Positions 2,479 to 25,948 of a DNA stretch of 50,095 nucleotides are shown here, piece by piece (position 1 is the stretch's first letter; each line of letters opens with the position of its first letter). A program made the translations under genes and the position numbers. Below the pieces are notes generated by a model that saw only the letters and a list, made by a program, of their open reading frames with translations, was not told the origin of the DNA and did not search any database. Source of the DNA: Microcystis wesenbergii FACHB-1317 (GTDB lineage: Bacteria; Cyanobacteriota; Cyanobacteriia; Cyanobacteriales; Microcystaceae). Location: NCBI RefSeq assembly GCF_014696875.1, contig NZ_JACJQV010000126.1, forward strand, positions 1-50,095. Reading direction: 5' to 3'.

Positions 2479-2497
2479 TCAAAAAAAGTCAGAGGTG

Positions 2498-4644: not shown

Positions 4645-4647
4645 ACT

Positions 4648-7280: not shown

Positions 7281-7301
7281 TCTTTAGATGGTAGGTTGGT
7301 T

Positions 7302-7415: not shown

Positions 7416-7483
7416 TAATTACCCTTGGCCCTCCTCTCCCCACTCCCCACACTTCTTAAACAGGATTTAGTCTAGGATACCTG

Positions 7484-8167: not shown

Positions 8168-8255
8168 CGCTATTTTCCGGGCTGCAGGGTTGGGGGAATG
8201 GAGACGGACAAAGGATCGACAGGCACTCATGCAACAGGTAGTTAGATATGTGTAG

Positions 8256-8661: not shown

Positions 8662-8670
8662 TATTGTGTT

Positions 8671-9126: not shown

Positions 9127-9181
9127 AAATTTTTTTTATCAACTAAACTCTTGACATTGAACAGAAAATGTGCATAGCCGA

Positions 9182-9490: not shown

Positions 9491-9599
9491 TCAAGCTACT
9501 TAACACTTCATCCCTATTCTATCGATGATTGGGGTTGACAGGGGTTGAGACAGAATTAATGTAACAATGAGTTTATCCATAGCTAAATGACCGGAATCT

Positions 9600-10001: not shown

Positions 10002-10012
10002 TGCTGTTGGGA

Positions 10013-10136
10013 GTCAGTTATCAGTGATCAGTGATCAGTTATCAGTTATCAGTTATCAGTTATCAGTTATCAGTTATCAGTTATCAGTTATCAGTTATCA
10101 GTGATCAGTTATCAGTTATCAGTTATCAGTTATCAG
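10013..10136. repeat. Heptanucleotide tandem repeat (GTTATCA)n
   Basis: About 17 head-to-tail copies of GTTATCA with some GTGATCA variants, directly after the stop codon of the preceding gene. The same heptamer array occurs at 34831-34910. The rest of the 268-base gap before cobQ holds a copy of the CTCTTGCATGAGTG repeat (10161-10174) and of ACTCAACGGATTTAGTAT (10195-10212). I see no cobalamin riboswitch. Confidence 0.9.
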
Positions 10137-10269
10137 ATGTGAGTTTTCAGTTATTAGCCTCTTGCATGAGTGTCTGTCCTTATAAGTAGCATATACTCAA
10201 CGGATTTAGTATCAACTGATTACTGTTTACCGATTACTGTTCACTGAAAATACTCAATAAAAAAACTAG

Positions 10270-11745
10270 ATGAAAGCAATTATGGTAGTGGGGACGACTT
10301 CCCACGCGGGTAAATCTTTTTTAACTGCCGCTTTATGTCGTTTATTCAACCGGAAAGGCTGGCAAGTAACACCCTTTAAAGGTCAGAATATGGCCCTTAA
10401 TGCCTATGTTACCGCAGGAGGGGGAGAAATGGGTCACGCCCAGGCGGTGCAAGCATGGGCTGCGGGGACAGTTCCCCGGGTAGAAATGAACCCAATTTTA
10501 TTAAAACCCCAGGGAAATATGACCTCTCAGGTGATTATTAAAGGCAAGGCTGTGGGTATCACCACGGCAGTGGATTATTATCAGAATTATTTTGAGCAAG
10601 GTTGGCAAGCAATTAAAGAATCTTTAGCTAAATTATCAACAGAATTTGATCTAGTTGTCTGTGAAGGTGCGGGAAGTCCGGCGGAAATAAATCTCAAACA
10701 TCGGGATTTAACTAATATGCGGGTGGCTAAATATCTCGATGCCGCTACTATTTTAGTGGTGGATATTGATCGCGGGGGGGCTTTTGCTCACGTCGTCGGT
10801 ACGTTAGAATTATTAGAACCGGAGGAAAGAGCTTTAATTAAAGGTATTGTGATCAATAAATTTCGCGGACAAAAATCTCTCTTAGATTCGGGGATTACTT
10901 GGCTAGAAGATTATACAAAAATTCCCGTGTTGGGAGTTCTTCCCTATAGTGATATCTTTTTAAGTGCCGAGGATTCTCTCAGTTTACTTGATCGCCCCGC
11001 CCAAAAACCTAAAGCTGAACTAAATATCAGTGTCATTCGTCTGCCTCATATCGCTAATTTTACTGATTTTGACCCTCTCTGTGGTGAAGCAACGGTTAAT
11101 GTCCGTTATCTAGAATTACAGGAATCTTTAGGTGATCCCGATGGGGTAATTATCCCCGGTTCTAAAACTACTGTCGCTGATTTAATCGCTCTTAATCAAA
11201 GTGGTATGGCTAATCAATTACAAGCCTATCACCAAAGGGGAGGTATTATCTTTGGCATCTGTGGTGGTTTGCAAATGTTAGGGCGATTAATCCTGGATCC
11301 TGACCATCGAGAAGGTCCCGAAAGTGAAGCAGCTGGCTTAAATTTACTGCCCTTAAAAACGGTAATTACTGCCGAAAAAATTACCCGTCAACGACAAGTT
11401 TTATCTAATTTTCCCGAAGGGGGTTTACCAGTAACAGGATACGAAATTCACCAAGGAATAAGCGCATGGGAAAGTGAATCAGGTTATCAAAAAATGTTCG
11501 AGGAGGATGCTAGTCTAGGAATTGTCAATGATTCTCTGTCAATTTGGGGCTGTTATTTACATGGTATCTTTGATAATGGTTCTTGGCGAAGAACTTGGCT
11601 AAATCATCTACGTCAGCGTCGCGGTTTATTATCTTTGCCTACGGGAATTGCTAACTATAGTGAACAAAGAGAAATAACCCTAGATGCTATGGCTAATTTA
11701 CTGGAAGAACATTTAAATCTTAACCCTATTTTTGCTCATTTGTAA
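10270..11745 (+). CDS. cobQ: Cobyric acid synthase
   Basis: A 491-residue amidotransferase that amidates side chains b, d, e and g of adenosylcobyrinic acid a,c-diamide in cobalamin (here probably pseudocobalamin) synthesis, using glutamine and ATP. The N-terminal ATPase domain carries VVGTTSHAGKSFLTAAL and FKGQNMALNAYVT. The C-terminal glutaminase domain has the nucleophile Cys331 in FGICGGLQMLG and the catalytic His431 in YLHGIFDN. Length and both active sites are intact. A ferredoxin gene follows 9 bases later with its own AAGGAG, so the two are likely cotranscribed. Confidence 0.97.
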   Translation: MKAIMVVGTTSHAGKSFLTAALCRLFNRKGWQVTPFKGQNMALNAYVTAGGGEMGHAQAVQAWAAGTVPRVEMNPILLKPQGNMTSQVIIKGKAVGITTAVDYYQNYFEQGWQAIKESLAKLSTEFDLVVCEGAGSPAEINLKHRDLTNMRVAKYLDAATILVVDIDRGGAFAHVVGTLELLEPEERALIKGIVINKFRGQKSLLDSGITWLEDYTKIPVLGVLPYSDIFLSAEDSLSLLDRPAQKPKAELNISVIRLPHIANFTDFDPLCGEATVNVRYLELQESLGDPDGVIIPGSKTTVADLIALNQSGMANQLQAYHQRGGIIFGICGGLQMLGRLILDPDHREGPESEAAGLNLLPLKTVITAEKITRQRQVLSNFPEGGLPVTGYEIHQGISAWESESGYQKMFEEDASLGIVNDSLSIWGCYLHGIFDNGSWRRTWLNHLRQRRGLLSLPTGIANYSEQREITLDAMANLLEEHLNLNPIFAHL

Positions 11746-11754
11746 GGAGAAATT

Positions 11755-11994
11755 ATGACTATTGCAGTGCGTTTTTTACCCGATGATATTATCATGGAAG
11801 CGGAAACCGGAGAACTATTATTAGATGTGGCAAAAAAAGCAGGAATTGACATTCCTACCGGCTGTTTAATGGGTTCCTGTCACGCTTGCGAGGTAGAATT
11901 AGATGATGGTACTCAAATCTGTAGTTGTATTACTGGTATCCCCGGCGATCGAGATTCTTTAACTGTTCATTTATACTCCGATCCGCTCTGGTAG
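11755..11994 (+). CDS. Short [2Fe-2S] ferredoxin-like protein
   Basis: A 79-residue plant-type [2Fe-2S] domain. The ligand loop has Cys37-x4-Cys42-x2-Cys45 in PTGCLMGSCHACEVEL; the fourth ligand would be Cys56 or Cys58 (ICSC). Third-to-fourth spacing is only 10-12 residues against roughly 29 in photosynthetic ferredoxin, so this is a shortened variant. AAGGAG seven bases before ATG gives a strong start. Position directly after cobQ suggests coexpression, possibly as an electron donor in corrinoid reduction, but that is inference. Confidence 0.82.
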   Translation: MTIAVRFLPDDIIMEAETGELLLDVAKKAGIDIPTGCLMGSCHACEVELDDGTQICSCITGIPGDRDSLTVHLYSDPLW

Positions 11995-12009
11995 GTTGCT
12001 CCCTTAGAT

Positions 12010-12714
12010 CTAGTCAAACTTGGGAATAATCCAAGCTGCTATAATAGCCAATAAAACAACAATTTCTAAGACTTTATATAAGTTAAGAGATTGTAGCCAC
12101 TGAAAAGTATTAGCTAGACGCAAACTTAACCCCCATTGACGTAATTGAGATAACCATAATTTCGGGCTATCTTGTTCACGAAAACCCCATTTAAGGATAG
12201 ACAATAACAGGGGAACTCCCCCCACTTTAGCAGTCATGAGCAGGTGCAGCACCAGACATACTGCCATAATTAACCAACTGAGCAAATGGGCATAATACCA
12301 AAAGTGATTTAATTCCCCTTCTGGTAGCCATTTGGAATCCATCATCCGGCCACTATACAAAGCAAAAGTTAGGGCAAAAAGAGTCAAAGTATTGACTAAA
12401 CGATGGAGACTATACCACCAAATCGGCTTACCAAATTGGGTTAATTTGTTAAGAGAATCACTTTGAATTAATCTTTTGTTGCCGCGACGAAAAGCATAGA
12501 TAGCAAAAACGGGAAAGATAATCAGAGTATAGAGGCCAAAAGTACCATGAATACTTTCAATTTCTTGATATTCTGGTAAAGGCAGTTTTAACCAACGACC
12601 GTCAAAAGTATCATAGGTCCAATAGGCCGTAACCATGGCGGCAATGAGGGCAATTCCCGTGAATCCGTGCAGAATTCGCAGTAAAAGAGGTTGATAGGGT
12701 TGATTAGTTTTCAT
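12010..12714 (-). CDS. Cytochrome b561/b6-domain membrane protein
   Basis: A 234-residue integral membrane protein with about five helices. An early LLRILHGFTGIALIAAMV gives one heme-ligand His, and later helices provide SIHGTFGLYTLIIF, LHRLVNTLTLF and FWYYAHLLSW plus VLHLLMTAKVG. Paired His in successive helices fit b-type heme binding. The partner is not known. It converges on the ferredoxin gene, leaving 15 bases between stops. The divergent VTE6-like gene begins 44 bases away on the other side. Confidence 0.75.
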   Translation of the reverse strand: MKTNQPYQPLLLRILHGFTGIALIAAMVTAYWTYDTFDGRWLKLPLPEYQEIESIHGTFGLYTLIIFPVFAIYAFRRGNKRLIQSDSLNKLTQFGKPIWWYSLHRLVNTLTLFALTFALYSGRMMDSKWLPEGELNHFWYYAHLLSWLIMAVCLVLHLLMTAKVGGVPLLLSILKWGFREQDSPKLWLSQLRQWGLSLRLANTFQWLQSLNLYKVLEIVVLLAIIAAWIIPKFD

Positions 12715-12758
12715 CGACTCGATCGATACAATAGGGTATGTAAACTTGCCCAGATACT

Positions 12759-13499
12759 ATGTTAACTAATCCTTGGCTCGTCGCTGTTCTTCTCAATACC
12801 ATCCTCCTCGGAATCGCTACAATTGCCCCAAAAAAGCTCTTAACTCGGATGGGTTATCTCCATGCTTGGGTTTTAGGGGTAATTGTCTGGGGAAGCTTGG
12901 GATGGCGCGGTTATCTAATTGTTTTATTCTATTTCCTCGTCGGTTCTACTGTCACCCGCATCGGTTTAGCTCGCAAGGAAGCGGAGGGAATCGCCGAAAA
13001 AAGATCGGGGGTACGCGGTCCAGAAAATGTCTGGGGTTCCGCTTTAGCAGGGGCAATTTGCGCTATTCTCAGTCTTTTTGCCGCTTCTCCCTGGGATTAC
13101 CTCTTAATACTCGCTTATGTGGCTAGTTTTAGCACTAAATTAGCCGATACTACTGCCAGCGAGGTGGGTAAAGCTTACGGTAAAACTACTTATCTAATCA
13201 CTAATTTTAAATCCGTCCCCCGGGGAACAGAAGGTGCTGTTAGTTTGGAAGGAACGCTCGCCGGTTTGCTGGCAGCCACGGCGATTTCCCTGTTAGCATG
13301 GGCTATTGGTGCGATCGATCTTCTTGGTGTGTTATGGTGTGTAATTGCGGCATTTATCGCCACCAATATGGAAAGTCTCATCGGAGCTACCCTACAAACT
13401 CGCTTTCTGTGGTTAACTAATGAATTGGTCAATGTGATCAATACGGTTATCGGTGCGATCGTGGCTATACTGTTAAGCTTGCTCTGGTCTTTCAGCTAA
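12759..13499 (+). CDS. DUF92 / VTE6-like membrane kinase
   Basis: A 246-residue polytopic protein of the TIGR00297/DUF92 family with about six membrane helices. It contains KRSGVRGPENVWGSA, FSTKLADTTASEVGKAYGK and FKSVPRGTEGAVSLEGTLAG, the family's most conserved blocks. The Arabidopsis member VTE6 is a phytyl-phosphate kinase that recycles chlorophyll phytol into phytyl diphosphate for tocopherol, and a Synechocystis homologue is known. This window also encodes homogentisate phytyltransferase, the user of that product, at 44882-45823. The assigned reaction rests on family knowledge. Confidence 0.85.
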   Translation: MLTNPWLVAVLLNTILLGIATIAPKKLLTRMGYLHAWVLGVIVWGSLGWRGYLIVLFYFLVGSTVTRIGLARKEAEGIAEKRSGVRGPENVWGSALAGAICAILSLFAASPWDYLLILAYVASFSTKLADTTASEVGKAYGKTTYLITNFKSVPRGTEGAVSLEGTLAGLLAATAISLLAWAIGAIDLLGVLWCVIAAFIATNMESLIGATLQTRFLWLTNELVNVINTVIGAIVAILLSLLWSFS

Positions 13500-13523
13500 A
13501 ATTAAGTGACTAAAGAAATATCT

Positions 13524-14579
13524 ATGCTAAAGTGGCGTTTTTGTGCATTTTCCCTGCTGTTACTGCTAATTACTGCCTGTGGGACGGAAAATCAATCTAA
13601 TTCTAGTTCTAACACCGCAAGTAGTCCCGATGCTGGCCGCTTGCAAACGGTGAAAAATCGCGGTAAGTTAATTTGTGGCATTAACGGAGAAGTGTCGGGG
13701 TTCAGCTTTGTTAATGAAAAAGGCGAATATTCGGGCTTAGATGTGCAAATTTGCCGAGCTATTGCGGCGGCTATCTTTGATGATCCCTCCAAAGTCGAAT
13801 ATCGTAAACTTAGCCCCCAAGAGAGATTTACTGCCGTACAGACGGGAGAAGTGGATATCCTCAGTCGCAACACCACCTGGACGATTAACCGGGATACCGC
13901 TCTGGGGATGGAGTTTATCACCCCGGTTTTCTATGATGGTCAAGGAATCATGGCCACGAAAGCCAGTAATGTTAAGAAATTAGAAGATTTGAGCGGAAAG
14001 TCCATTTGTGTGCTATCGGGAACCACCACAGAACAAAATCTGGCCGATGCCATGGCAAAAGCGGGAGTTCAAGGTTATAAACCGATCGTTTCCGATGATG
14101 TGGAGGCTTTATATACAGCTTATCAGGCGGGGCGTTGTCAGGCTGTCACTTCCGATCGCTCCCAATTGGTGGCCCGGCGCTCGGTTTTTCCCCGACCACA
14201 GGATCATCAATTATTAGAAGTGGTAATATCTAAGGAACCCTTGGCCCCAGCCGTGGCCGATGGTGATCCCGCTTGGTCGAATGCCGTCCGCTCGATCGTT
14301 TTTAGTTTAATTCAAGGGGAAGAATTTGGGATTAACTCCCAAAATATTGGCACTTTTGCCGATAGCAAAGACCCCAGTATTCGGCGCTTTTTGGGTATTG
14401 ATGAGAAGTTAGGTGAAGATATGGGTTTACCCAATGATTTTGCCCAAAGAGTCTTAAAACAGGTGGGTAATTACGGTGAAATCTATGATCGGGAAATCGG
14501 TAAACCCCTACAACTCGATCGAGGTTTAAATAATCTTTGGACAAAGGGGGGTTTATTGTATTCTCCTCCTTTTCGTTAA
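13524..14579 (+). CDS. Amino-acid ABC transporter substrate-binding lipoprotein
   Basis: A 351-residue periplasmic binding protein of the AapJ/BztA type. The lipoprotein signal ends LLLITAC, with acylated Cys. A low-complexity Ser/Asn linker is followed by two lobes (LQTVKNRGKLICGINGEVSG, GLDVQICRAIAAAIF, EVDILSRNTTWT, CVLSGTTTEQNL). It should deliver polar or acidic amino acids to a membrane permease that is not encoded nearby. I choose ATG 13524, which leaves a typical short signal; an in-frame GTG at 13506 would add six residues. Confidence 0.88.
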   Translation: MLKWRFCAFSLLLLLITACGTENQSNSSSNTASSPDAGRLQTVKNRGKLICGINGEVSGFSFVNEKGEYSGLDVQICRAIAAAIFDDPSKVEYRKLSPQERFTAVQTGEVDILSRNTTWTINRDTALGMEFITPVFYDGQGIMATKASNVKKLEDLSGKSICVLSGTTTEQNLADAMAKAGVQGYKPIVSDDVEALYTAYQAGRCQAVTSDRSQLVARRSVFPRPQDHQLLEVVISKEPLAPAVADGDPAWSNAVRSIVFSLIQGEEFGINSQNIGTFADSKDPSIRRFLGIDEKLGEDMGLPNDFAQRVLKQVGNYGEIYDREIGKPLQLDRGLNNLWTKGGLLYSPPFR

Positions 14580-14581
14580 TT

Positions 14582-15469
14582 TTAAGATTGTGTTTCCTGA
14601 CGGGGAATATAGACCCCTATGGCTGCTGGAATAACCCGAAATATGGCGGGAGTAGTGCTAGTAATTTCGCCATCGGTGTTGATACTATGGGGTTTACGAG
14701 TCTGAATTTGAATTTCTTTCCCCTTAAGAGTTCTCACCCAAGATAATAAACCCTGTTGTCCTCGCGGTAATGTCCATAAAAGCGGGAAAATTTGCCACCA
14801 GTGTTCAATTTCTAGGCTATATAAATCTAACCTTTGATCGTCAATTTGGGCATCGTGAGCGATCGGCATTCCTCCCCCATAATAACGACCATTTCCGATC
14901 GCTATTTGTAGGGTTTTAACTTTAATATTTTGGCCATCAACACGGATCATAGCGGTAAAAGGACGGGTTTTACTTAATACCTGTAGGGCTGTCCAAGCGT
15001 AGGCAAAAATCCCCAAACGTCGCTTTAAACCCTTGCTCAGTTTTTGGGTAATTTTCACACTTAATCCTAAACTAGCCACGTTGAAAAAGTATTTATTATT
15101 TACCCAACCTAGATCGATATATTTTAAATTACCTTCGGCAATAATTCGACAGGCTTCGGCAATAGAATTCGGTATCCCTAAAGTCCGGGCTAAATCATTA
15201 GCTGTTCCCAAAGGTATAATACCTAGGGGCAGTTGAGTTTCTAACAACACATCCACCACAGCATTAAGAGTCCCATCGCCGCCACCGACGATAACTAAAT
15301 CAATATTAGAGCGATATTTTTCCAACAAAAAAGGTATATCTTCTACCTTTTTCAAAGGGACGCTGATAATTTCAAAATCCCAATCATTGAGCAGATCAAC
15401 AGTTTGAGCAAAGTTTTCTTTACCCTTGCGCGAGTGACGATTGATTAGTAGTAAAGCTCTTTTAGTCAT
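14582..15469 (-). CDS. YegS/DagK-type lipid kinase
   Basis: A 295-residue diacylglycerol-kinase-fold enzyme. The N-terminal RALLLINRHSRKGKE, the nucleotide-binding GGGDGTLNAVVDVLL and LPLGIIPLGTANDLARTLGIP are diagnostic. The C-terminal half ends DGEITSTTPAIFRV, where the conserved Asp/Glu metal site is normally found. It probably phosphorylates a lipid such as diacylglycerol. The exact substrate cannot be read from sequence. It converges tail to tail with the binding-protein gene, two bases between stops. Confidence 0.88.
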   Translation of the reverse strand: MTKRALLLINRHSRKGKENFAQTVDLLNDWDFEIISVPLKKVEDIPFLLEKYRSNIDLVIVGGGDGTLNAVVDVLLETQLPLGIIPLGTANDLARTLGIPNSIAEACRIIAEGNLKYIDLGWVNNKYFFNVASLGLSVKITQKLSKGLKRRLGIFAYAWTALQVLSKTRPFTAMIRVDGQNIKVKTLQIAIGNGRYYGGGMPIAHDAQIDDQRLDLYSLEIEHWWQIFPLLWTLPRGQQGLLSWVRTLKGKEIQIQTRKPHSINTDGEITSTTPAIFRVIPAAIGVYIPRQETQS

Positions 15470-15518
15470 AGGTAAGTTTCTCAGCAGTGCAAGGATAAAG
15501 GTTAAGCTGCCTGGGAAT

Positions 15519-16304
15519 TTAAGTGCGCGGACTGCTTATAGCTCTAACCTGTTTAACCTCTAACTCTAACGCGGATGCGACTTGCTCAACACTTAACCCT
15601 AAGGCTAACAAACGAGGAACAGCCTCTAGTGCTTTGTTTAGTCTGCCTTCCTGACGCGCTTCCTCGCGCACATCTTGAAAATACTGAGTTTGTTTTAATT
15701 CATCTAAACTAAACATAGTTTCTATCTCCCGACGATTGAGAAGCGGTAACTTATAAACGAGAATCGTCTCTATTAATTGTAAGAGTTCTTGGGGTTTTTG
15801 GTCGGGGGTTAATTCTTCCCGCACTCTTTGGATTAATTTTCGGGTACTATCAAGCGCTTTTGCTTTAGATAGGGTGATTAATTGCACTGTGGCTAAACCA
15901 ATCGAAGTTTGAGGAGTGTTTTCTAATTCATTCAGATAAATCCGTCTCACTCGCTCGCAGTGGAGGAGTTCCCGATAGCGTTGAACTTTATCGGTTTCTA
16001 CTTGAGGGTTAGGATAGACAATCACACCCCGCCAATCATTGGTTAAGTCGGTTTTACTGAGATATAAGAAGATTTCGGTGAAAAAGCGCTGATAAAAAGC
16101 CTCATCTTCTTGAAATTGTACCTCATACTAAATCCGTTGAGTAACGCACAGAAAACGGGTTTCTCCGAGAAACAGAAAACGGGTTTCTCCGAGAAACCCG
16201 TTTTCTACTCATGCCTTGGCTTCGGTGATGGGGAGTTGAATTAACTCAAAGAAGATAGAGGAGAATGATTGAAAGAGTTGATAAAAAATCGTGTCAGTTT
16301 TCAT
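15519..16304 (-). pseudogene. DUF2887 family (PD-(D/E)XK nuclease-like) gene, internally disrupted
   Basis: The N-terminal part reads from ATG 16304 (KTDTIFYQLFQSFSSIFFEL...) to a TGA at about 16212. The C-terminal part resumes at about 16131 (EVQFQEDEAFYQRFFTEIFL) and runs to 15519. The middle is replaced by 80 bases of repeat DNA that carries stops, and roughly 40-50 residues of the family core are gone. The 168 residues that remain open from GTG 16025 include ARQEGRLNKALEAVPRLLALG, typical of the tail of these Rpn-like cyanobacterial proteins. These are multi-copy nuclease/recombination-promoting genes; this copy is dead. Confidence 0.8.
16174..16206. repeat. 15-bp perfect hairpin in disrupted DUF2887 gene
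   Basis: AGAAAACGGGTTTCT, three bases, then its exact reverse complement. The left arm is preceded by a tandem copy (from 16150). The block is flanked by ACTAAATCCGTTGAGT, a repeat also found inverted at 10195-10212. It occupies the gap where DUF2887 coding sequence is missing. The adjoining intergenic stretch to 16548 has a weak hairpin plus T5 (16386-16410) and a TAGACACAATTAATTACACAT repeat end shared with 44457-44485. Confidence 0.85.
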
Positions 16305-16548: not shown

Positions 16549-17535
16549 TTAGTCAATAATTAGGGCAATTTTCCCCGTCACCGAACCAGTTTCTAGCAAT
16601 TGATGGGCGCTGATAGCTGCCGCTAAAGGGAAGGTTTGGGAGAGATGAATAGTTAACTTTTTCTCGTCAATTAAACGCGCCCCTTGCTTGAGAATTTCTG
16701 TTTGATATTTTTGTGCTTCTACCAACCCCATCAAAGCCGGGGTTAACATTAATTCTAAACTAATCCGCAAATTGCGATCGCGCGCTTGCTTCCAGCTGCC
16801 CGTAGGTTCCAAAATCGTCACAATATCGCCATAAACTCGCACCGCCCGGCAAGTTTGCCCAAAAGTTTCCCCTCCCACCGTATCAAAAGCGATATCTACT
16901 CCTTTCCCTGCGGTTTGTTGAAGTATCGCTGCGACGAAATCGGTTTGTTTGTATAAAATCGGGTAATCTACCCCTAATTGCCGCACTAAACGCTCTTTAT
17001 CGCTATTTCCCACCGTCGTATAAACTTTAGCCCCCTTCAGTTTCGCCAATTGAATCGCGACATGACCAACACCCCCAGCCCCGCCATGGATAAGGACGCT
17101 TTGTCCCGACTGGAGACGGGCGCGATCATAGAGTGCTTCCCAAGCGGTGATTAAAACCAAAGGCACAGCGGCCGCCTCGGCAAAAGAAAGAGATTTCGGC
17201 TTGTGGGCTAGATAATCCGCCTCAATCAGGGCATATTCAGCATAATTCCCCGTGCCGGCCTTGCCCAGTCCGCCGCTACAAAAGTACACTTCATCCCCGG
17301 GACGAAAATCCTGCACTGCCGCCCCAACGGCCTCGACAATTCCCGCCCCGTCACAGCCCAAAATGGCCGGCATTTGCTCGGGGTAAAAAGTGCCGCGTTT
17401 ACGAATTTTTGTATCAATAGGGTTGACACCAGCCGCTTTTAATGCTACTAAAACCTGATGCGGTTGACTAATTTTCGGGGTGGGGACTTGCTGAAGCTGC
17501 AGGACATCCACGGCGGTCATGAGGATAGCTTTCAT
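16549..17535 (-). CDS. Zinc-independent MDR oxidoreductase (NADPH:quinone reductase-like)
   Basis: A 328-residue medium-chain dehydrogenase/reductase. It has a GroES-like N-terminal domain (HQVLVALKAAGVNPIDTKIR, GCDGAGIVEAVG), and a Rossmann motif SVLIHGGAGGVGHVAIQLAK for NADP(H). The cysteines of the structural zinc lobe are absent, as in quinone oxidoreductases of the zeta-crystallin type. It probably reduces quinones or enones. The substrate is not predictable. The start is ATG 17535. A repeat and an ISAs1 relic lie directly upstream of it. Confidence 0.88.
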   Translation of the reverse strand: MKAILMTAVDVLQLQQVPTPKISQPHQVLVALKAAGVNPIDTKIRKRGTFYPEQMPAILGCDGAGIVEAVGAAVQDFRPGDEVYFCSGGLGKAGTGNYAEYALIEADYLAHKPKSLSFAEAAAVPLVLITAWEALYDRARLQSGQSVLIHGGAGGVGHVAIQLAKLKGAKVYTTVGNSDKERLVRQLGVDYPILYKQTDFVAAILQQTAGKGVDIAFDTVGGETFGQTCRAVRVYGDIVTILEPTGSWKQARDRNLRISLELMLTPALMGLVEAQKYQTEILKQGARLIDEKKLTIHLSQTFPLAAAISAHQLLETGSVTGKIALIID

Positions 17536-17582
17536 TCTCAGTAGGTTAGGTGTTAAAAATTGTCAGATACCCCCCCTTAAAG

Positions 17583-18408
17583 TAGGGCTGTTTCATTCTC
17601 CCATCAGAATGTCAAAAGTAAAAGCGATCACTGTCTTGGTAAAATGAGCAGTGACCACCAACCTTTTAAATATATGTTGAGCCTAATAGAAAAACTGAAA
17701 CAAGTCAAGGACTTTCGGAAAGATAAAGGAAAAAGACAACCTTTATGGATAGTATTATTACTAATACTAGGAACAATGCTGGGATACTTAGGTTATAGAG
17801 AGCTAGGAGAGTTTGCTAAAAATAATCGACATAGGCTCAGTCAAGAATTTAACAAATTCCAGAAATAGTCTGATCCTATTCAACAATTAGAAGGGTAATG
17901 ATGGGATTTATGGCAGAGTTTATTACGAGTATTTAATGAATGTGCTTGGCAATAATATGGACAAAGAGGTGATATAAATTGGCTAGATATAGATGGAAAA
18001 AATCTCAAAAACAACCTAATTAGGTTGGTCTCATTGTTTAGTCAAGAAAGTCGATTGGTATTACAATTAAAAAGAATCGAAAACAAAAAAGGGTCTGAAA
18101 TCGAAGAAGGTCAAGCTATAATCAAGCATTGCTCTCTCCCCAATAAATTCTTTACTGGCGATGCTTTACACTGTCAGAAAAAAAATCAGCTTAATAACCA
18201 AGAGTAAAAATGATTATGTTATCACCATTAAAGGAAATCAGAAAAATCTTGATCAGCGAATACAAGACCTGAGTAATTCCTCAAAGCCAGAAAGTTGCTT
18301 TCTTGAACAAGATAATAGTCAGGGCAGAAAAATATCAAGAAAAATAGAAGTTTTTAAAGTGAGGAAAAAATGAAAGAAAAGATTTTGAAAATCTGCCAAG
18401 AATTATTT
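17583..18408 (+). mobile_element. Decayed ISAs1-family insertion sequence
   Basis: The left end TAGGGCTGTTTCATTCTC is identical to that of the copy at 49041. Sequence similarity to that copy continues to about 18408, where it stops inside the transposase and a heptamer array begins, so the right end is lost. The element interrupts a GTGTTAAAAATTGTC repeat (17558-17582), an intact relative of which is at 38793-38858. Confidence 0.88.
17644..18408 (+). pseudogene. ISAs1-family transposase pseudogene
   Basis: Fragments of the transposase encoded intact at 49101 onward. Residues corresponding to LIEKLKQVKDFRKDKGKRQP and YRELGEFAKNNRHRLSQEFN read in one frame to a stop at 17866-17868. After that come frameshifts, stops and a deletion between about 17960 and 18030. 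The later pieces HCSLPNKFFTGDALHC and KNDYVITIKGNQKN lie in two other frames. The C-terminal catalytic third is missing. It cannot encode an active enzyme. Confidence 0.88.
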
Positions 18409-18571: not shown

Positions 18572-20098
18572 TCAATCTGGGCTAGCAATTGCTTGTTCGG
18601 CTATATTAACTAAATTCTGGCTCTCCCCATCGCTCAGTTTTTTGCCAGATTGTAGGTGAACGCATATTTCGGGTAATTGCTGGCGTATTGCTAAAGCGAC
18701 AGCTTTTTCAGCCGCTGGGATTTCCGCGATCATCAATCGATCAAATACTCCTGATGTCACCGCTAGGAGTATAGCAATTTGTTCGGGAACCGGCATCGGT
18801 TCGTACTGATTTTGTTTCAAAACTTCCCGCACGCGCCGCCCTCGTTCTAAAGTTTGACGAGTGACTTCATCTAAACGAGTGCCAAAACGGGAGAAAACCT
18901 CTAGTTCTTCAAACTGGGAATAAGATAGGCGTAAATCACTCGCTACAGCACGATAGGCAGCTAATTGAGTCTTCCCCCCCACTCGCGACACCGACTTACC
19001 CGCATCTACCGCCGGCAAAATTCCTTTTTGAAACAGCACAGGAGAGAGATAGATTTGCCCGTCGGTAATTGAGATTAAATTGGTCGGAATGTAAGCAGAG
19101 ATATTTTGGGCTTCGGTTTCGACAATCGGCAATGCAGTTAAAGAACCACCTCCTCGGGCAGCATTTAGGCGTGTAGAGCGTTCGAGCAAACGAGAATGGA
19201 TGTAGAAAATATCCCCAGGAAAAGCTTCTCGACCGGGAGGACGGCGTAATAGCAGCGATAGCTCTCGATAAGCGCGAGCATGAGCGGTCAAATCATCATA
19301 AACAATCAAGACATCATGGCCCTGCTCCATAAAATACTCTGCCATGGCCGTGGCGGCGTAGGGAGCAATAAACTGCAAGCCTGGTGGTTCTTCTCCAGCG
19401 GCAAAGACGACCAAACAGTAGTCCATCGCCCCATACTGCTGCAAGTCAGCGACGAACTTAGCCACCGCCGAACTGCGCTGTCCGATCGCGCAGTAAACGC
19501 AAATCACCTTTTCACCTTTTTGGTTGATAATCGTGTCAAGAGCGATCGAGCTTTTTCCTGTTTGGCGATCGCCTAAAATCAATTCTCGCTGGCCCCGTCC
19601 GATGGGAATCAGAGCATCCACCACCTTTAATCCCGTTTGCAGCGGTACTGTCACCGGAGCGCGATCCATAATTGCTGGGGCTTTTCGCTCGGCCAAATAT
19701 CTTTGTGCCGCCCGCACTGGCCCCTGGTTATCCAAGGGGCGACCCATGGGATCGACTACTCGCCCTAAGAGTCCGTCACCCACCGGCACATCTAGCACTC
19801 GTCCCGTCCGGCGTACCTCATCCCCTGCTTTTAAATGTTCGCTTTTATCTAGGAGGATAATGCCGACTTCATCAATATCCAAGTTAAAGGCCATACCCAG
19901 GGAATCTCCAGGGAAACAAACAATTTCTTCCGATTTGACGCCTGGCAAGCCAGCAATCCGGGCAATCCCTTGACCGATAAAGTTTACCGTGCCAATTTCT
20001 CGGTATTTAAGTTGTGGGCGCTGCTCGCCCAAAATCCGTTGGCAGGTAGAGAAGGTATCCTCTAGCAATCGATGTAAAGCTCGCTCATCTCGGTTCAT
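18572..20098 (-). CDS. atpA: N-type F-ATPase alpha subunit
   Basis: A 508-residue alpha subunit of the alternative (N-type) F1Fo ATPase. Walker A is [14 protein letters not shown], and [10 protein letters not shown] carries the conserved Arg that reaches the catalytic beta site. The reading frame appears intact. It overlaps atpF by four bases (20095-20098). In N-ATPase operons the gamma gene (atpG) comes next, but here the sequence runs into repeat and IS debris. Alpha cannot work without beta and gamma, neither of which is encoded here. Confidence 0.93.
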
Positions 20099-20883
20099 GG
20101 TATTTTTTGATTACCCCTCGCCTCTCGCGTAAAGACAACGGCTAAATCCTCTTCAAAGTCGTTCAAAAATTCCTCGACATTCCAGGCGATTCTTCGGCCA
20201 GAGGTTTTTAACTCAATGCCACAGATCAAGGCCGGTTTCACTTCAAATTTTATATCCAGATCACCAACAAGTTCTTGGCGAAGAACTGAGATAATTTGCT
20301 GCCGCAATTCTTCCGAGATTTCAAAGCTGCTAGAGATGATTGCCTCCTGCGTCTTGGCCGTTGCGGCGATCGCTTGACAAAGCACTCGTTTCTCTTCCCG
20401 CTCCCAATTGCGAACTCGCTCAAGGAAAACTTGAATGACAAGCTGTTCAAGTTGGACATCGGCTAGAGCTGCCAAAACTTGGCGAATTGTCTCCTGAATC
20501 TGTTGTAATGCTCGATGTCGCAACTCTTGCAAAAAGGCATCTTTTTGCCGTTGAACTATTTCTTGCCAGCGAGATCGATCTTCTTCTACTTCAGTGCGGA
20601 TACCTTGCATTAACTCTGTTTGCGTCTGTGCAACTGCTGCCTTAACTTCAGCCAACATCGTCGAGCGCTCAGTCGCAAAATCTTGCTGCATTTGTTGGTA
20701 TTTTTCGATTTCTTCTCGCGCTAATTGGCACTTTTGTTCTGCATCTTGCTGGCGATCGCTAATTGTTCTTTCCCGACGTTCCATTGCCTGAATAATAGGA
20801 CGGTAGAGAAACTTTTGCAGTACAGCCACCAAAATCAAGAAATTAACAATTTGGGCCAAAAAGGTAAACCAATCAACTGCCAC
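20095..20883 (-). CDS. atpF: N-type F-ATPase long b subunit
   Basis: A 262-residue peripheral-stalk subunit. An N-terminal membrane helix (about 5-22, [20 protein letters not shown]) is followed by a long Glu/Gln/Arg coiled coil (30-150) and a C-terminal domain to residue 262. It is about 100 residues longer than ordinary b. N-ATPase operons lack a delta gene, and the extended b is thought to compensate, as here. It starts with ATG four bases before the c-subunit stop and overlaps atpA. Confidence 0.92.
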
Positions 20884-20887
20884 GGAA

Positions 20888-21166
20888 TTATCCCCCCGCT
20901 TTAGTCACTACATAACCCCAAAAAGGATTGGCAAAAATTAAAATTAGCGAAATCACAAAACAATAAATTGCCACTGACTCAATAAATGCCAAACCAACAA
21001 ATAACGTTCGAGTAATCGTATTGGCTTCGTCCGGCTGTTGCGCCAAAGCGGTCAAAGCTTGAGCGATAGCTCTTCCCTCTCCCAGTGCTGGCCCGATTGA
21101 ACCGATCGCCATAGTTAATCCAGCCGCTAAAATTGAGATCATTGCCGTCAAGCCAATATTATTCAT
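20888..21166 (-). CDS. atpE: N-type F-ATPase c subunit
   Basis: A 92-residue hairpin of two membrane helices. Helix 1 contains IGSIGPALGEG with Glu30; helix 2 contains GLAFIESVAIY with Glu63-Ser64. Two carboxylates at the ion site are characteristic of N-ATPase rotors. These were predicted to bind Na+, although I recall that a characterised Burkholderia ring is a proton binder. I start at ATG 21166; an open upstream extension to 21235 overlaps atpB and has no family counterpart. It overlaps atpB by eight bases. Confidence 0.93.
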   Translation of the reverse strand: MNNIGLTAMISILAAGLTMAIGSIGPALGEGRAIAQALTALAQQPDEANTITRTLFVGLAFIESVAIYCFVISLILIFANPFWGYVVTKAGG

Positions 21167-21875
21167 GGTTTCTTTGCTCCTTTTCTCCTGTATGAGAATT
21201 ATTAACCACTTGCTGTGCTTCTGTTGCTGAAGCAATATAAACCATAGCTAAAATCGCAAAAATATACGCTTGAATTAATCCAGTCAGTAGCTCCAATACC
21301 TGCATGATAATCGGGAAAAAGAGAGGAGCAATGGATAAAAGAATAGCTACTATCATGACATCACTCATCACATTGCCAAACAGCCGGATAGCCAAGGACA
21401 AAGTGCGTGACAGTTCCCCAATCAGATGAAAAGGTAACATCAAGGGATGGGGTTCTAAATAGTGCTTGAGATATTTTTTTAACCCTGACTGACGTATGCC
21501 GTAAAATGGCACCGCCCAAAAAACACAGATAGCAAGTGCTGCCGTTGTAGAAAGAGAGGCCGTAGGCGGATGATATCCCGGGATGATTTCTAAGAGATTG
21601 GAAGCGGCGATAAAAATAAACAAAGTACCAATAAATGGCAAGTAGATATCCGGTTGGCATCCGCTAATATCTCTTATTTGACCCCGCAATTCTTCGATTA
21701 CAACTTCCAAAACATTTTGCCAGCGAGACAGACGAGTATCTGTCGATAGTCGGCGCGTGATTAGCCAGGAACTAATGCCCAATAACGCCATTAACCCCCA
21801 AGTAAATAACAGAGTAGCATTAAGGGTAATTGCTCCTGATTGCCAGAAAATAATCTTGTCAGGACTTAGATACAT
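21159..21875 (-). CDS. atpB: N-type F-ATPase a subunit
   Basis: A 238-residue membrane stator with about five helices. RLFGNVMSDVMIVAIL carries the essential Arg that faces the c-ring carboxylates, and GLIQAYIFAILAMVYI is the conserved last helix. DIYLPFIGTLFIFIAASNLLEIIPG matches the second-helix block. The gene is intact and lies 12 bases after atpR, with an eight-base overlap into atpE. Together with the c-ring it forms the ion channel. Confidence 0.93.
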   Translation of the reverse strand: MYLSPDKIIFWQSGAITLNATLLFTWGLMALLGISSWLITRRLSTDTRLSRWQNVLEVVIEELRGQIRDISGCQPDIYLPFIGTLFIFIAASNLLEIIPGYHPPTASLSTTAALAICVFWAVPFYGIRQSGLKKYLKHYLEPHPLMLPFHLIGELSRTLSLAIRLFGNVMSDVMIVAILLSIAPLFFPIIMQVLELLTGLIQAYIFAILAMVYIASATEAQQVVNNSHTGEKEQRNHE

Positions 21876-21887
21876 GAGCTATTGTAC

Positions 21888-22181
21888 TTAGTTGCTTCTG
21901 AATTTAGGTTGTACCTGCTGCAATATTAGATTTCTCGTCCAGAAGAAGGTGGCCAGGCTTAACAGCAAGTGGAGGACTGGCAAGTGGGGGACTGCAACTA
22001 TTATCGCATAAAATCCCAGCAAAATTATGCCTGTACGCCCCAAAAAACTAATCAAAGTTAATACCGTGGGATTATTGGTTCTGGGGAGTTGACGCACCGT
22101 TAGCCACAATCCCCCAAAATAGGCCAAACCCAAGGCCATTCCCGCCAATAATGCCAGAGGAAAATACAGCAGTTCAATCAT
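21888..22181 (-). CDS. atpR: AtpR, N-ATPase-specific membrane protein
   Basis: A 97-residue protein with three predicted helices (about 3-23, 38-60 and 65-85). In N-ATPase operons atpR follows atpQ and is thought to help build the c-ring or to interact with its ion-site glutamates. The polar/charged residues R31, R48 and R83 in or near the helices fit that idea. ATG 22181 is chosen because it overlaps the atpQ stop by eight bases as in related operons. The longer frame to 22256 is atpQ shadow. Confidence 0.88.
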   Translation of the reverse strand: MIELLYFPLALLAGMALGLAYFGGLWLTVRQLPRTNNPTVLTLISFLGRTGIILLGFYAIIVAVPHLPVLHLLLSLATFFWTRNLILQQVQPKFRSN

Positions 22182-22533
22182 GATTGAGTTCCTTTTTCGA
22201 TTGCTCGCGTGCGCCCTCGATGGCGGATTGTTCGCGCTTAACCCACTGCCAGGCATTCAAACAGCCCAGCATCAATCCAGCCAACATTAACATTAATGTC
22301 CAGGAAAAGCGACTCGGCCATTCTCGATCGATCCAGATACCGAGTGCCATACCTAAGAGAGTGGGTAGAACGACTGACCAGCCGACCAATCCCAATAAGC
22401 CCAGGCCAAACCATATACTGTGCTTCTTTTCTACTCTAGCTCTGAGTTTGCGCTCTTCCTGGCCCCCTACCTTGCGGCTAAAGCGCAAACGATTTTTTTG
22501 ATGACTTCTTGCTGCCATTTTATTAGTACCCAT
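22174..22533 (-). CDS. atpQ: AtpQ (AtpI-like) N-ATPase membrane protein
   Basis: A 119-residue protein. A basic N-terminal region (1-38) precedes two membrane helices (about 40-65, GLGLLGLVGWSVVLPTLLGM; and 74-96). The C-terminus is charged. It is related to AtpI, a Mg2+-transport and assembly factor of F-ATPases. Possible starts are ATG 22533 and ATG 22518. Its place between atpC and atpR is diagnostic for the N-ATPase gene order D-C-Q-R-B-E-F-A-G. Confidence 0.88.
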   Translation of the reverse strand: MGTNKMAARSHQKNRLRFSRKVGGQEERKLRARVEKKHSIWFGLGLLGLVGWSVVLPTLLGMALGIWIDREWPSRFSWTLMLMLAGLMLGCLNAWQWVKREQSAIEGAREQSKKELNHD

Positions 22534-22551
22534 ATTTCTATTATTTCTCGT

Positions 22552-22947
22552 CTAGTCCCCTCGCTGCCCTCCTAGTTCAATAAATTGCCGGATCATGTTA
22601 GCTTCCAGTTTTGTCAGAGCCACGCGAGTGCGTTTTTCCCGCTCATCTAAGATTTGAAACTGCTTTTCTACCGCCTCTCTTAAGCATCCTAAGTCGGCAC
22701 TTTCAACAGCATGGCGAGTAGAAACCCGCACGTCAAAACCAGATTTGACCAAAATGCCCTCATCCACGGCCATAAATCTTTCCTGCTCTTGAGGAGTGGT
22801 GAAAGACAGCAATCCGGGCAAGATAGCGGTGACAAAATCAATGTGATGTGGCAGCAGACAAAAGCAACCGCTTCCCGATTCTGCTGTGACTTTAATAACT
22901 TCTGTCTCTAATAGGATTCGGGTGGGCAATATAACTCGGAGTTTCAT
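22552..22947 (-). CDS. atpC: N-type F-ATPase epsilon subunit
   Basis: A 131-residue epsilon subunit made of the N-terminal beta-barrel (KLRVILPTRILLETEVIKVTAE, FCLLPHHIDFVTAILPG) and a C-terminal helical part. The start is ATG 22947; the frame is open to 23082, but that extension reads back through an insertion-sequence end. In complete N-ATPase operons atpD (beta) ends just before this gene. Here the left-end hairpin of an IS200/IS605-type element begins 22 bases upstream of the ATG, so both atpD and the native promoter are gone. Confidence 0.9.
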   Translation of the reverse strand: MKLRVILPTRILLETEVIKVTAESGSGCFCLLPHHIDFVTAILPGLLSFTTPQEQERFMAVDEGILVKSGFDVRVSTRHAVESADLGCLREAVEKQFQILDEREKRTRVALTKLEANMIRQFIELGGQRGD

Positions 22948-22968
22948 CGAAAATTTGGGTCTGAAACC

Positions 22969-22985
22969 CCGCCGTTTTACGGCGG
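22969..22985. repeat. IS200/IS605-type left-end hairpin
   Basis: CCGCCG-TTTTA-CGGCGG, a perfect six-pair stem with a five-base loop in the setting GAAACCC...GCTTTACC. This is the usual subterminal palindrome of IS605-group elements, bound by TnpA when present. It sits about 50 bases before the truncated tnpB. Confidence 0.75.
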
Positions 22986-23037
22986 CTTTACCATTAAATA
23001 CTAGCGCATTTACAAAATATATGCTAGAACGTGAGAT

Positions 23038-23406
23038 ATGGAAAAAGCCTATTCGTTTCGATTTTACCCCACACCAAAACAAGAGTCGCTATTGCGGCGC
23101 GCTTTGGGCCGTGTAAGATTAGTTGACAATAAAGCTCTCCCTGTCAGAACACAAGCTTGGTACGAAAAACAAGAAAGAGTAGGATATGCTGCAACGTCTT
23201 CAATGCTAACCGATTGGAAAAAACAAGAAAAATTAGACTTTTTAAACGAAGTTAGCTGTGTACCTTTACCCGAAGGGTTAAGACATTTACAAACAGCTTT
23301 TACTAATTTCTTGGCTGGTCTTACTAAGTATCCTAGCTTTAAGAAAAAACATCAAGGAGGAAGTGCCAAATTTACTAAGTCTGCTTTTCACTGGAGTTTA
23401 GACTAG
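23038..23406 (+). pseudogene. tnpB: Truncated TnpB (IS605 OrfB)
   Basis: 122 residues matching only the N-terminal third of a TnpB of about 400 residues: EKAYSFRFYPTPKQESLLRR, SSMLTDWKKQEKLDFLNEVS and KYPSFKKKHQGGSAKFTKSAF are typical. The RuvC-like nuclease core and the zinc ribbon are missing; translation ends in SLD-stop at 23406, where unrelated DNA starts. No reRNA-bearing right end can be found. The guide-directed nuclease is therefore inactive. Confidence 0.88.
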
Positions 23407-23808
23407 ACTGTCCGGTTTGATGTCGGGGGAAGCACATTAAAATTTGTCTTAGCCTGTCAGAAAGCTAAGAATAGTCAGAAATATGATCAATTCTTGTTTT
23501 AAGCTACCTCTTTTATCTCTTTTTTCTGTCGAGTAACTGTCTTTTTCACCGTCGGATAACGAGTTTTTTTGTGACGTTTTTTTCCCTTCTCCCAACCTGG
23601 GGACTTTCCTCTGGGTTTTGGCGGTTTGGCGGGTGTGCCTATCTCGACCAAAAGTCCCAAAAAGCTTTGTGCCACTCTTGCAGGGGTTAATTTCTCCACA
23701 GGTAAAGGCTTTTGCCAAGGTAAGGGATTATCTTCTATAATCTCACGAAGCTCACCATAATTGCCATGTCATAATAGGGATTAAATCACTCCATCTTTGA
23801 CCCTTCTC

Positions 23809-24127
23809 ATACCATTTTTCTTTATTCTTGGCAGGTATCTTACCCCCCCTTGCCCCTAGGGTCGTTTCATTCTCGCAAATGTCATTCAATCAAATCCTTA
23901 TCTGGCAAGGTTTTCAGTCAATTTCTCAGAACAAATATCTGAAAAATTTTTAAAATGCCTTGCTTTGCTTGCCCCGTAAGCGATTGAAGACAGACAAACA
24001 AGGAATCAAACTAGAGAATGAATCAGCCCTACCCTTGCCCCCCCTGCCCCCCCGATGTCGGGGGGGCAGGGGGGGTGGGGGGTGAGGGCAATTAACCATC
24101 TCTGCCATTACTTGTGAAAAATGGTAT
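23809..24127. mobile_element. MITE with ATACCATTTTTC ends, invaded by a second MITE
   Basis: Same inverted ends and same interior GAGGGCAATTAACCATCTCTGCC as the copy at 7302-7415, but enlarged by low-complexity C/G runs (24036-24080) and by the 175-bp element at 23857-24031 plus its target duplication. It lies inside the transposase remnant at 23496-24615. Confidence 0.8.
23857..24031. mobile_element. ISAs1-derived MITE with 10-bp target duplication
   Basis: 175 bases bounded by TAGGGTCGTTTCATTCTC and GAGAATGAATCAGCCCTA, an imperfect inverted pair. The outer end matches TAGGGCTGTTTCATTCTC of the ISAs1 elements at 17583 and 49041. CCCTTGCCCC is perfectly duplicated at 23847-23856 and 24032-24041. 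No coding sequence. It should be mobilised in trans by an ISAs1 transposase. Confidence 0.85.
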
Positions 24128-24889
24128 CAGTGGTTCCTAGTTTAGGTAAAGTCCAGTGTAATCTTTGCTTCATAAAACGATTCCAATGCTCAAGGACAAA
24201 GCGTCTTAAATACAATTTCCACAGGTCGATTGAGCATATTTCTTCTTCTCCTATCCAAGCCAACCACATTGGTGTAGTAGCCCTTTGAGAGAGTTTTTTT
24301 CCCTGAGGTTGAACCAAGATTATAGACAGATGATAATCAGCCGATTGTTCAAAATGAAAACGATTCCATCTCGAAATTTTTACGACTCCCCAAGTTGGGT
24401 CATCAATCTCAATACTTTCCACTGGAACTGCCCAAGTTTCTGGGTCAGATAATTTCATTTTTTGACCAGGTTTTTTCGGTCTCCCATTTCCTTGATATTG
24501 GGGAGGTTCTGCATAAATACAGCGATTAGGGCGTAGCCGAATTAGTTGCTCTGCATTAATGTTTGCTGTTTCTTTAACAAAGGGAGCGCATCCGTACTCA
24601 CTGTGGAAATGTGGAAACGAGGCCTATACTGATAGTTTATTTAACAAAATAGTCCTAAAAGTCTTTCCCAGTAGACATTTCACGATTTCATAAGCAAAAA
24701 TTATCACACAAAGTCGAGAAGAGCCAAAATTTGACTGATTATCATTGGTTAAATTTTCTTTAATTTGTTAGGGGGGTATGAGAACCGGATTTGGTATTAT
24801 TGCTGTGAGAGGCACATTATTACTTCGACAGTTCCAATCAAATAATAGGAGAAATAACTTAATGCAAACCTATACTGACAGACAAAGAA

Positions 24890-25696
24890 TTGATGAGATC
24901 GGCGGTCAGGTATATGGGGGAACAACCGTTCTGCGGCCAATCTTGGCGACTTAGAGACACTACAACTCCTTTGTGTCGCCAAAGACAGCCCGACTTCTAT
25001 CCGCGTCCTCCCCAAGTGAGGAAATTCTTAAAATCAATGGGAATGAAATGTTTAAAAGTAGGTTCTCTTCCTTCTAAAGCTGACCAGGATGAACAAGAAG
25101 ACTACAAAGAAAAAAAGCTATAACCCAGACTAAATAAGGCTAAAGAAGGAAAAAGGGCTGTTTTTTTTGTTGATGCGGCTTCCTTGGTTATGGGAGCTTT
25201 TCTCGGTTTTGTTTGGTGTTTTGAGAGACTTTTCGTTAAGTCACCGAGCGGGCGTAAACGCTTTAATGTTTTGGGAGCATTAAATGCAATAACTCATGAA
25301 GTTATTCTGGTAACATATGACACTTATATTCCAGCAACTCAAGTCTGTGAACTCCAGTCAAAAATAGCTGCTTTAGGACTAATAGTTCCTATCACTCTAG
25401 TATTAGATAATGCCCGCTATCAAAAATGTAAAGTTGTTGAGAAATTGGCTCTTTATTTGTCAATATAGCTACTCTATCTGCCGTCTTATTCGCCGAATCT
25501 AAATTTAATTGAAAGGCGGTGGAAATTGGTCAAAAAGAAATGTTTTTATGGTAAATATTATGAAAACTTTTCTGACTTTTCCTAAGCTATTTATGAATGT
25601 CTGAATGATGCCCATCTGAAACATAAAAAAGAACTGGATTCCTTGCTCACTCTCCGATTTCAGAAGTTTAATAAATCTCAGATTATGAACGTCTAA
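24890..25696 (+). pseudogene. IS630-family transposase pseudogene
   Basis: From about 25015 one frame reads VRKFLKSMGMKCLKVGSLPS, then, past a TAA, NKAKEGKRAVFFVDAASLVM with the first catalytic Asp, GRKRFNVLGALNAITHEVI, VLDNARYQKCK with the second Asp, then, past a TAG, YLPSYSPNLNLIERRWK with the catalytic Glu, and after a third stop the tail to TAA 25696. So the DDE triad is visible, but three nonsense codons break it. The region before 25015 is poorly matched and the ends are not clear. The 252 bases to the next gene contain two AGGCACTCATGCAA motifs and a CCGGATTTAGTAT repeat. Confidence 0.85.
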
Positions 25697-25948
25697 AGTA
25701 TACATATCAGGAGAGGCACTCATGCAAGAGGCACTCATGCAAAACGGAGAATATATAATCAGTTTTTAATAACCGGATTTAGTATAACGCCCAATTTTAG
25801 GAGAAAGTTTCCCCTTAAAAATCCCAAATTAGTAGATTTACAAAAATGAGATGCACCCCAAGCAAAACGATCGAACTTATAATATAATTGTATTGATTGT
25901 GGCTTGTTGCTAGAATCACCCCAAATTGACTCAATGGGTTTATAAACG

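Follow-up and report, generated by a model that had tools for sequence, protein, structure and literature searches.

A dispersed, probably still functional N-ATPase in Microcystis wesenbergii as a likely case of a recurrent cyanobacterial pattern

The window, a 50,095-nt stretch of the Microcystis wesenbergii FACHB-1317 genome (contig NZ_JACJQV010000126.1, here C31), carries seven genes of an N-type rotary ATPase, with no gene for beta or gamma beside them. Has this ATPase lost two of its subunits, or do the partners of the segment lie elsewhere? A sequence-only reading had described beta and gamma as missing and took the segment to be either a relic or a set using subunits encoded elsewhere.

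All seven frames are open, lie on the minus strand in the N-ATPase order atpC-Q-R-B-E-F-A and match family models, in agreement with the earlier description of intact genes in that order. The N-type epsilon gene atpC (22552..22947) has its ATG at 22947-22945, adjoining the left end of an IS605-type element. AtpQ (ATPase_gene1; 22174..22533) scored above the family cut-off, and AtpR (21888..22181) scored 66 on the Pfam AtpR model (cut-off 26) and 53.9 on the NCBIfam model, slightly under its cut-off of 55.5. N-type models also matched atpB (subunit a, 21159..21875), atpE (subunit c, 20888..21166) and atpA (alpha, 18572..20098); on the NCBIfam 'alternate F1F0 ATPase' models, the window's epsilon, a, c and alpha proteins exceed the cut-off. 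The long N-type subunit b encoded by atpF (20095..20883) is 262 aa and reached 218.9 bits against a cut-off of 224.7. The final codons of atpA are altered at the break, and the protein is the same length as in sister strains. AtpE carries two carboxylates, GEG in helix 1 and ES in helix 2 (an ion-site reading by eye), a motif by which the enzyme is probably a Na+-type rotary ATPase. A study of Synechococcus PCC 7002 saw no increase in N-ATPase mRNA under high salt, a result that its authors considered to contradict a Na+ role (PMC3468840).

A search of the whole genome for N-type atpD and atpG, on which the sequence-only reading had staked itself beforehand, found both intact. On their N-type models, the beta gene (C204:7580-8974) scored 807 bits (cut-off 752) and the gamma gene (C51:7698-8600) 342 bits (cut-off 282), so that beta and gamma are absent from the window and not from the genome. 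The N-type genes thus occupy three loci, with D on C204, C through A on C31 and G on C51; six of seven core subunits (beta, epsilon, a, c, alpha and gamma) lie above the N-type cut-off, b being slightly below, and all nine frames are open in this strain (G000), both severed genes included. The idea that subunits were lost is ruled out by these two genes. As for the two earlier readings, subunits encoded elsewhere proved correct, on C204 and C51, whereas the chief argument for a relic falls away, since the genome contains every N-type gene. A canonical ATP synthase is also present, with beta/epsilon on C202 and alpha/gamma on C240.

The set resembles known N-ATPases (beta-epsilon-Q-R-a-c-b-alpha-gamma) in its nine genes, its family-model matches, its AtpQ and AtpR and the extra carboxylate in c. 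AtpQ and AtpR lie between epsilon and a, subunit b is long and there is no separate delta gene, for which the abutting genes of the sister operons leave no room. At the protein level the set therefore qualifies as an N-ATPase; unlike the single D-C-Q-R-B-E-F-A-G operon of that class, it is spread over three loci.

Mobile DNA at both ends of the segment, as the sequence-only reading had noted, points to how the operon was divided. At the D|C junction, immediately before the ATGA of atpC and 3′ of TCAT, lie an IS200/IS605-type left end and the 5′ part of a tnpB (22948..23388, plus strand) that ends after about 120 aa. Full copies elsewhere in the genome are about 1.3 kb and terminate in GATGTCAA; window 22943-23388 and C204 7283-7553 correspond to opposite ends of complete copies on C237 and C3, the left part adjoining atpC and the right part adjoining atpD. 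The element fits the IS605 OrfB type of IS200/IS605, with a Pfam HTH_OrfB_IS605 match in TnpB, a fixed short left-end target and no target duplication; its end hairpins were seen by eye only. Of the 31 matches listed, 13 further left ends were examined, and TCAT (ATGA on the other strand) flanked all 13. Given this left flank, the element would insert immediately ahead of an ATGA start and could cut an operon between genes, harming neither. The atpC gene has lost its native upstream region and leader. We rejected the idea that the IS left end supplies it with a promoter, as two promoter-like sites were found in the region against 1.7 expected, no better than chance.

The two-contig genome G059, from the same species, shows the order acsF-zn182-[atpD remnant]-window 15813..182-C204 114..6288-window 25785.. 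From this synteny we infer a single inversion of about 36 kb (G059 coordinates), broken at D|C and at C204:6288|window:25785, that would separate D from C-A. Further IS debris lies at the presumed inversion breakpoint (23389..25784, unstranded), including a multi-copy IS at about 25005-25702. The breakpoints fall within IS DNA of an assembly of 248 contigs. We looked for a long repeat common to both breakpoints that could have mediated the inversion and found none, the best being a 34-bp match at 82%. The IS605 parts at the two junctions fall about 530 bp short of one element, and 12 bp between two ATGA repeats are absent; together with the lack of a long shared repeat, this makes two separate insertions conceivable and any mechanism for the inversion tentative.

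Another event, beside degenerate transposon DNA, appears to have separated gamma. The A|G break carries a degenerate ISAs1-like element (17540..18407, plus strand) that is a multi-copy repeat in relatives; its assignment rests on a weak family match (Pfam DDE_Tnp_1_assoc, 30.5 bits, cut-off 32.3). A second window piece gave no hit except to an unrelated weak model, and the C51 piece gave none at all. A zinc-type alcohol dehydrogenase-like gene (16549..17535, minus strand) flanks the displaced segment and has no counterpart among the matches listed in G059. We could not place the gamma locus, as C51 had no match of at least 200 bp within the 80 kb of G059 examined.

Comparison with full-operon strains, as had been suggested, showed a contiguous operon in G001 and G005, with alpha frameshifted in G005 and an in-frame duplication in subunit a of G001; in G007, contig ends are the only interruption. 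G001 is a contig of an M. novacekii MAG and G007 a contig of M. aeruginosa LEGE 91341. The proteins of these sister operons are 93-100% identical to those described here, and the same zinc-ribbon gene lies upstream of atpD, but there is no split beyond contig ends, whereas here the genes lie at three loci. Across the 12 genus genomes examined, six gave no N-type match, and all that remains is an atpD fragment in G059 and part of atpG in G009; the two fragment-only genomes show that N-ATPase loss is common in this genus.

Substitutions in the nine genes are far from neutral. The dN/dS check proposed for the seven window genes, run here as part of the nine-gene set, gave totals of 0.19-0.20 for G000 against three sisters, compared with 0.17 between the sisters G007 and G001. 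Codon changes unique to G000 comprised 21 nonsynonymous and 32 synonymous, whereas neutrality would give a nonsynonymous fraction of 0.75 (p = 3.6e-8); the G005 alpha was excluded from both analyses. The G000 branch may for the most part be older than the split, and this low proportion is therefore no proof of selection after it. Elsewhere, dispersed genes common to sister species look to be under selection: in species with a common split (G326/G329/G354), D and G showed dN/dS of 0.05-0.14 at dS of 0.26-0.56. All dN/dS values are pairwise Nei-Gojobori estimates with no likelihood test; among four g102 genomes, five of the six possible pairs were run. For the gamma pair G241-G256, dS was 1.4, near saturation.

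We surveyed the cyanobacterial order for such breaks, covering the 52 of its 388 genomes with an N-type beta match plus G057 (alpha, no beta); genomes with neither match are absent. A junction was called broken if more than 700 bp of contig followed and yet no same-strand partner lay within 6 kb. At least one operon junction was broken in 27 of these 53 N-ATPase-bearing genomes, 21 were in order (13 with all eight junctions adjacent) and five were unclassed. We note that AtpR or C proteins too divergent for the models would be scored absent, for example AtpR in G060, and that G295 and G298, with no N-alpha match, are 76-81% complete genomes. G314, G338 and G347 count through a nearby inverted gamma alone, G018 is decayed, and G151 was counted for its A>G break, its E>F break being an artefact of where the sequence stretch ends.

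The control came from an alpha search, from which 80 of 129 loci were kept. None of the 28 non-cyanobacterial N-type loci with nine whole genes was broken; all follow the expected order, and no gap exceeds 265 bp. L280 agrees with this order, with beta cut by a contig end; L252, L256, L257, L261, L304 and L306 were omitted because they are cut before all nine genes are visible, and the gene order and gamma score of the remaining alpha-match loci show that they are not N-type. Loci of cyanobacteria from the search were kept out of the control; of those outside the survey, L244 and L245 are in order, and L262 and L248 have A-G gaps of 3.1 kb and 7.8 kb. The premise of a fixed D-C-Q-R-B-E-F-A-G order therefore stands for whole non-cyanobacterial loci and fails in this cyanobacterial order.

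If the splits had instead inactivated the operon, the nine genes would be a young relic yet to decay. The loss of the native atpC leader and the dispensability of N-ATPase in the genus, where two genomes keep only fragments, six have no match and one has a frameshifted alpha, are consistent with this. The open frames, even of the two severed genes, the non-neutral substitutions and the selection that retains dispersed N-ATPase genes in other genera argue the other way, and we regard this weakened reading as unlikely. Far less credible is that the seven-gene segment uses the beta and gamma of the ordinary ATP synthase: these are present on C202 and C240, but N-type and canonical gamma match at only about 23-38% identity, and borrowed subunits are unneeded because the N-type ones are intact.

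The true operon could also be contiguous, the split being a short-read misjoin at IS copies. Such an error is conceivable in an assembly so fragmented, since a 315-bp repeat inside the C204 junction has many other copies that match it at 96-100% identity, and an inverted repeat can be reciprocally mis-resolved. We nevertheless think it improbable, more so than a relic: the junctions lack a long common repeat, the IS part in the window is 87-91% like other long copies and should assemble uniquely, the arrangement in the same species (G059) is just one inversion away, and complete or near-complete genomes (G198, G018, G151) are also split.

We thus favor, with reasonable confidence, an N-ATPase that is dispersed but probably still works, as one instance of a pattern that recurs in cyanobacteria. 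A complete N-type operon would have been broken into three loci by mobile DNA, the window holding the middle segment: an IS605-type element may have inserted upstream of the ATGA start, cutting between D and C, an inversion of about 36 kb would have yielded the present arrangement, and gamma would have left in a separate event. Nine products from three transcription units would then assemble as before into a putative cation pump that is driven by ATP and coexists with the canonical ATP synthase.

Precedents for a divided or partial locus are the split locus of Nitrosococcus halophilus and the half locus of Chlorobaculum tepidum (PMC4154653). The available portion of that article reports them as isolated cases, reads the absent subunits as possible degeneration and gives no mobile-element mechanism; it also lists three cyanobacteria with no remark on splitting. 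It describes the canonical cyanobacterial ATP synthase as two gene clusters with beta apart from alpha/gamma, as here (PMC4154653). That split is regular across cyanobacteria, whereas the N-type splits vary between genomes. Gene clustering is itself an annotation criterion: as described in the accessible text, the rotary ATPase catalogue ProAD takes a single fixed-order N-ATPase cluster as its first criterion, followed by manual re-annotation (PMC11738941).

More tentatively, and with slightly less than even confidence, we propose that cyanobacteria have repeatedly freed the N-ATPase from operon control, yielding separate beta, alpha/gamma and Fo units of one pump that persist through speciation, and that this strain represents an early step. 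If so, an IS family that targets sites just upstream of ATGA starts would be well suited to splitting overlapping operons between their genes. Dispersed N-ATPase sets may, judging from the available description of ProAD, escape that catalogue or be filed as something else (PMC11738941). With related genomes that have the same enzyme in intact, permuted or scattered form, these bacteria would offer a natural test of how strongly rotary ATPase subunit stoichiometry relies on operon structure.

The 5.04-Mb genome lies in 248 contigs, of which the window is C31. On its minus strand are seven open genes, atpC-Q-R-B-E-F-A, with junctions as tight as in an intact operon. Family models back the N-type (alternate F1F0) identity of all seven, with b just below the model cut-off and AtpR just below it in one of two model libraries. 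The seven-gene segment in N-ATPase order with native junctions, described in the sequence-only reading, is thus borne out. Its claim that beta and gamma are missing does not hold genome-wide: of the four ATP-synthase alpha/beta family genes found by search, two are the canonical alpha and beta, one is the window N-type alpha and the fourth is an N-type beta on contig C204; for gamma, an N-type gene on contig C51 was found in addition to the canonical one. This beta and gamma are both full length and above N-type model cut-offs, and 9/9 N-ATPase genes have open reading frames. The earlier observation was real but its headline was wrong, as the N-ATPase genes of this strain are scattered, not missing.

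Comparison with strains holding the full operon, proposed in the same reading, revealed nine consecutive genes in sister genomes G001 and G005, preceded by the same zinc-ribbon gene; in a third sister, G007, the series is interrupted only by two contig ends. The contiguous operon is the ancestral state. Among 12 genomes of the genus, four hold all nine genes, two hold only fragments (gamma in G009, atpD in the same-species genome G059), and searches of the other six returned no N-type match. Loss of the N-ATPase is common in Microcystis. In G005, a two-contig genome, alpha is frameshifted despite the contiguous operon (L041; G005:C1 4987339-4988875), so contiguity is no proof of function.

Mobile DNA of the IS200/IS605 type flanks both genes at this break: on C204 its right end directly adjoins the last bases of atpD, and in the window its left end immediately precedes the atpC start codon. 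The genome also holds full-length copies (~1.3 kb), against which these pieces are recognised as the two ends of one kind of element. The sequence TCAT, which is ATGA on the opposite strand, flanks 13/13 other left ends examined (loci taken for the best 12 of 31 matches listed), and insertion at this target places the element immediately before start codons that read ATGA. We infer that this preference explains why both atpD and atpC remained intact. However, a single clean insertion does not fit the absence of ~530 bp of the element's middle from the two pieces combined, or the loss of 12 bp that lie between two ATGA repeats in sister strains. A short IS605-type left-end hairpin is also found directly upstream of the atpD start (L007; C204:8970-9015), with a match at the same place in G001, G005 and G007. 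About 17 short left ends of this sort are among the genome's listed matches, and these hairpins might serve as leaders.

The order in G059, a two-contig genome, runs from acsF (as we take this gene to be from its sequence) and the zinc-ribbon gene through the atpD fragment, window 15813 to 182 reversed and C204 114 to 6288 to window 25785 onwards. From a G059-like order with the full operon in place, a single inversion between D|C and C204 6288|window 25785 would produce the present arrangement of C31 and C204. By the G059 order, beta would then be expected on the other strand, at an estimated distance of ~30 kb from the seven-gene segment. The only repeat shared by the two breakpoints is an imperfect match of 34 bp. 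Window positions of about 25005-25702 hold a multi-copy IS, which has many copies at 90-95% identity in the relatives G008 and G005.

At the A|G break, the length of the window alpha is unchanged, and on C51 the native spacer upstream of gamma is preserved to about the alpha stop codon. Degenerate transposon sequence adjoins both broken ends; in the window it may be ISAs1-like, on weak evidence, and on C51 it was recognised by eye. The alpha-side and gamma-side neighbourhoods have a single match in common, 46 bp long and not at the breaks. The 80 kb of G059 examined do not contain C51, which means that gamma either was carried farther or left in a separate event. Separately, an 80-bp stretch of C51 (L008 9029-9108), ~430 bp behind gamma and between MITE-like ends, is ~95% identical to the zinc-ribbon gene preceding atpD in the sisters, a hint that the ends of the former locus recombined with each other.

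The dN/dS comparison that the sequence-only reading had suggested gave totals of 0.19, 0.20 and 0.20 against the three sisters, with 0.17 for the G007-G001 pair. With the frameshifted G005 alpha excluded, codon changes unique to this strain divide into 21 that are nonsynonymous and 32 that are synonymous, where neutrality would give a nonsynonymous fraction of 0.75 (p = 3.6e-8); the corresponding ratios in the three sisters are 22:26, 20:24 and 17:44. Against continued function, much of this branch may predate the split, constraint is looser on certain individual genes (gamma, dN/dS 0.28-0.53; AtpR, 0.32-0.74), and loss is common in the genus. In Synechococcus PCC 7002, the accessible part of one study reports N-ATPase transcripts without a rise in high salt (PMC3468840).

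Using the strain's own N-type beta as query against 388 genomes of the order, we found 55 copies in 52 genomes, all at at least 69% identity (next matches, 56%). In these and G057 (53 genomes), alpha and gamma were located, regions were scanned with nine profile HMMs, and junctions D>C, C>Q, E>F, F>A and A>G were scored. At least one is broken in 27/53 genomes, 21 are in order (adjacent or gapped), and the remaining five fall in neither class. D>C is broken in 17/55 D copies, A>G in 12 genomes and F>A in five; in G151, the E>F break is an artefact and the A>G break valid. The forms include beta alone (e.g., G025), a gamma-beta pair apart from alpha (G326, G329, G354), beta behind gamma (G017, G094) and inverted gamma (G314, G338, G347). 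G198, a single contig, carries two sets, one a contiguous operon and the second with an alpha-gamma pair 1.04 Mb from the rest. Outside cyanobacteria, every N-type locus seen whole (28/28) is contiguous with its genes in order, and no gap exceeds 265 bp (Fisher p = 6e-7 for breaks, ignoring relatedness and counting the five unclassed genomes as unbroken). Misjoins may account for some of the breaks in fragmented assemblies; G198, G018 and G151, which have breaks, are complete or nearly complete. Operons in order also carry defects: besides G005, G357 has stops in alpha and beta, and G238 in gamma.

Dispersed genes elsewhere are, by their dN/dS, under purifying selection, part of which very probably postdates the split. 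Values in G326, G329 and G354, which share the separated gamma-beta pair, are 0.05-0.06 for D, 0.08-0.14 for G and 0.08-0.10 for A (dS 0.26-0.71); G241-G256 and five pairs among four g102 genomes give 0.07-0.11 for D and 0.12-0.21 for G. G018 is a counter-example, with an open beta (G025-G018 dN/dS 0.09), a truncated alpha and a gamma interrupted by a transposase-like ORF (G018:C1 3139390-3140769 and 3979274-3981926); it possibly represents an orphan beta or very young decay.

In its accessible text, ProAD 2025 recognises N-ATPases first by a single cluster in fixed order, joining leftover clusters where possible and re-annotating tree outliers manually (PMC11738941). Accessible sections of an Acaryochloris study describe an N-ATPase order conserved with Aphanothece (PMC8949462), and those of a Microcystis study show that mobile-element effects, IS200/IS605 among them, are already known there (PMC11448079). 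Among the titles listed by literature searches on N-ATPase, operon and cyanobacteria, with most subscription papers outside their scope, none dealt with recurrent splitting of the operon in cyanobacteria, and no paper on N-ATPase in Microcystis was found. This strain appears to be a recent example of the repeated breakup of the N-ATPase operon in cyanobacteria.
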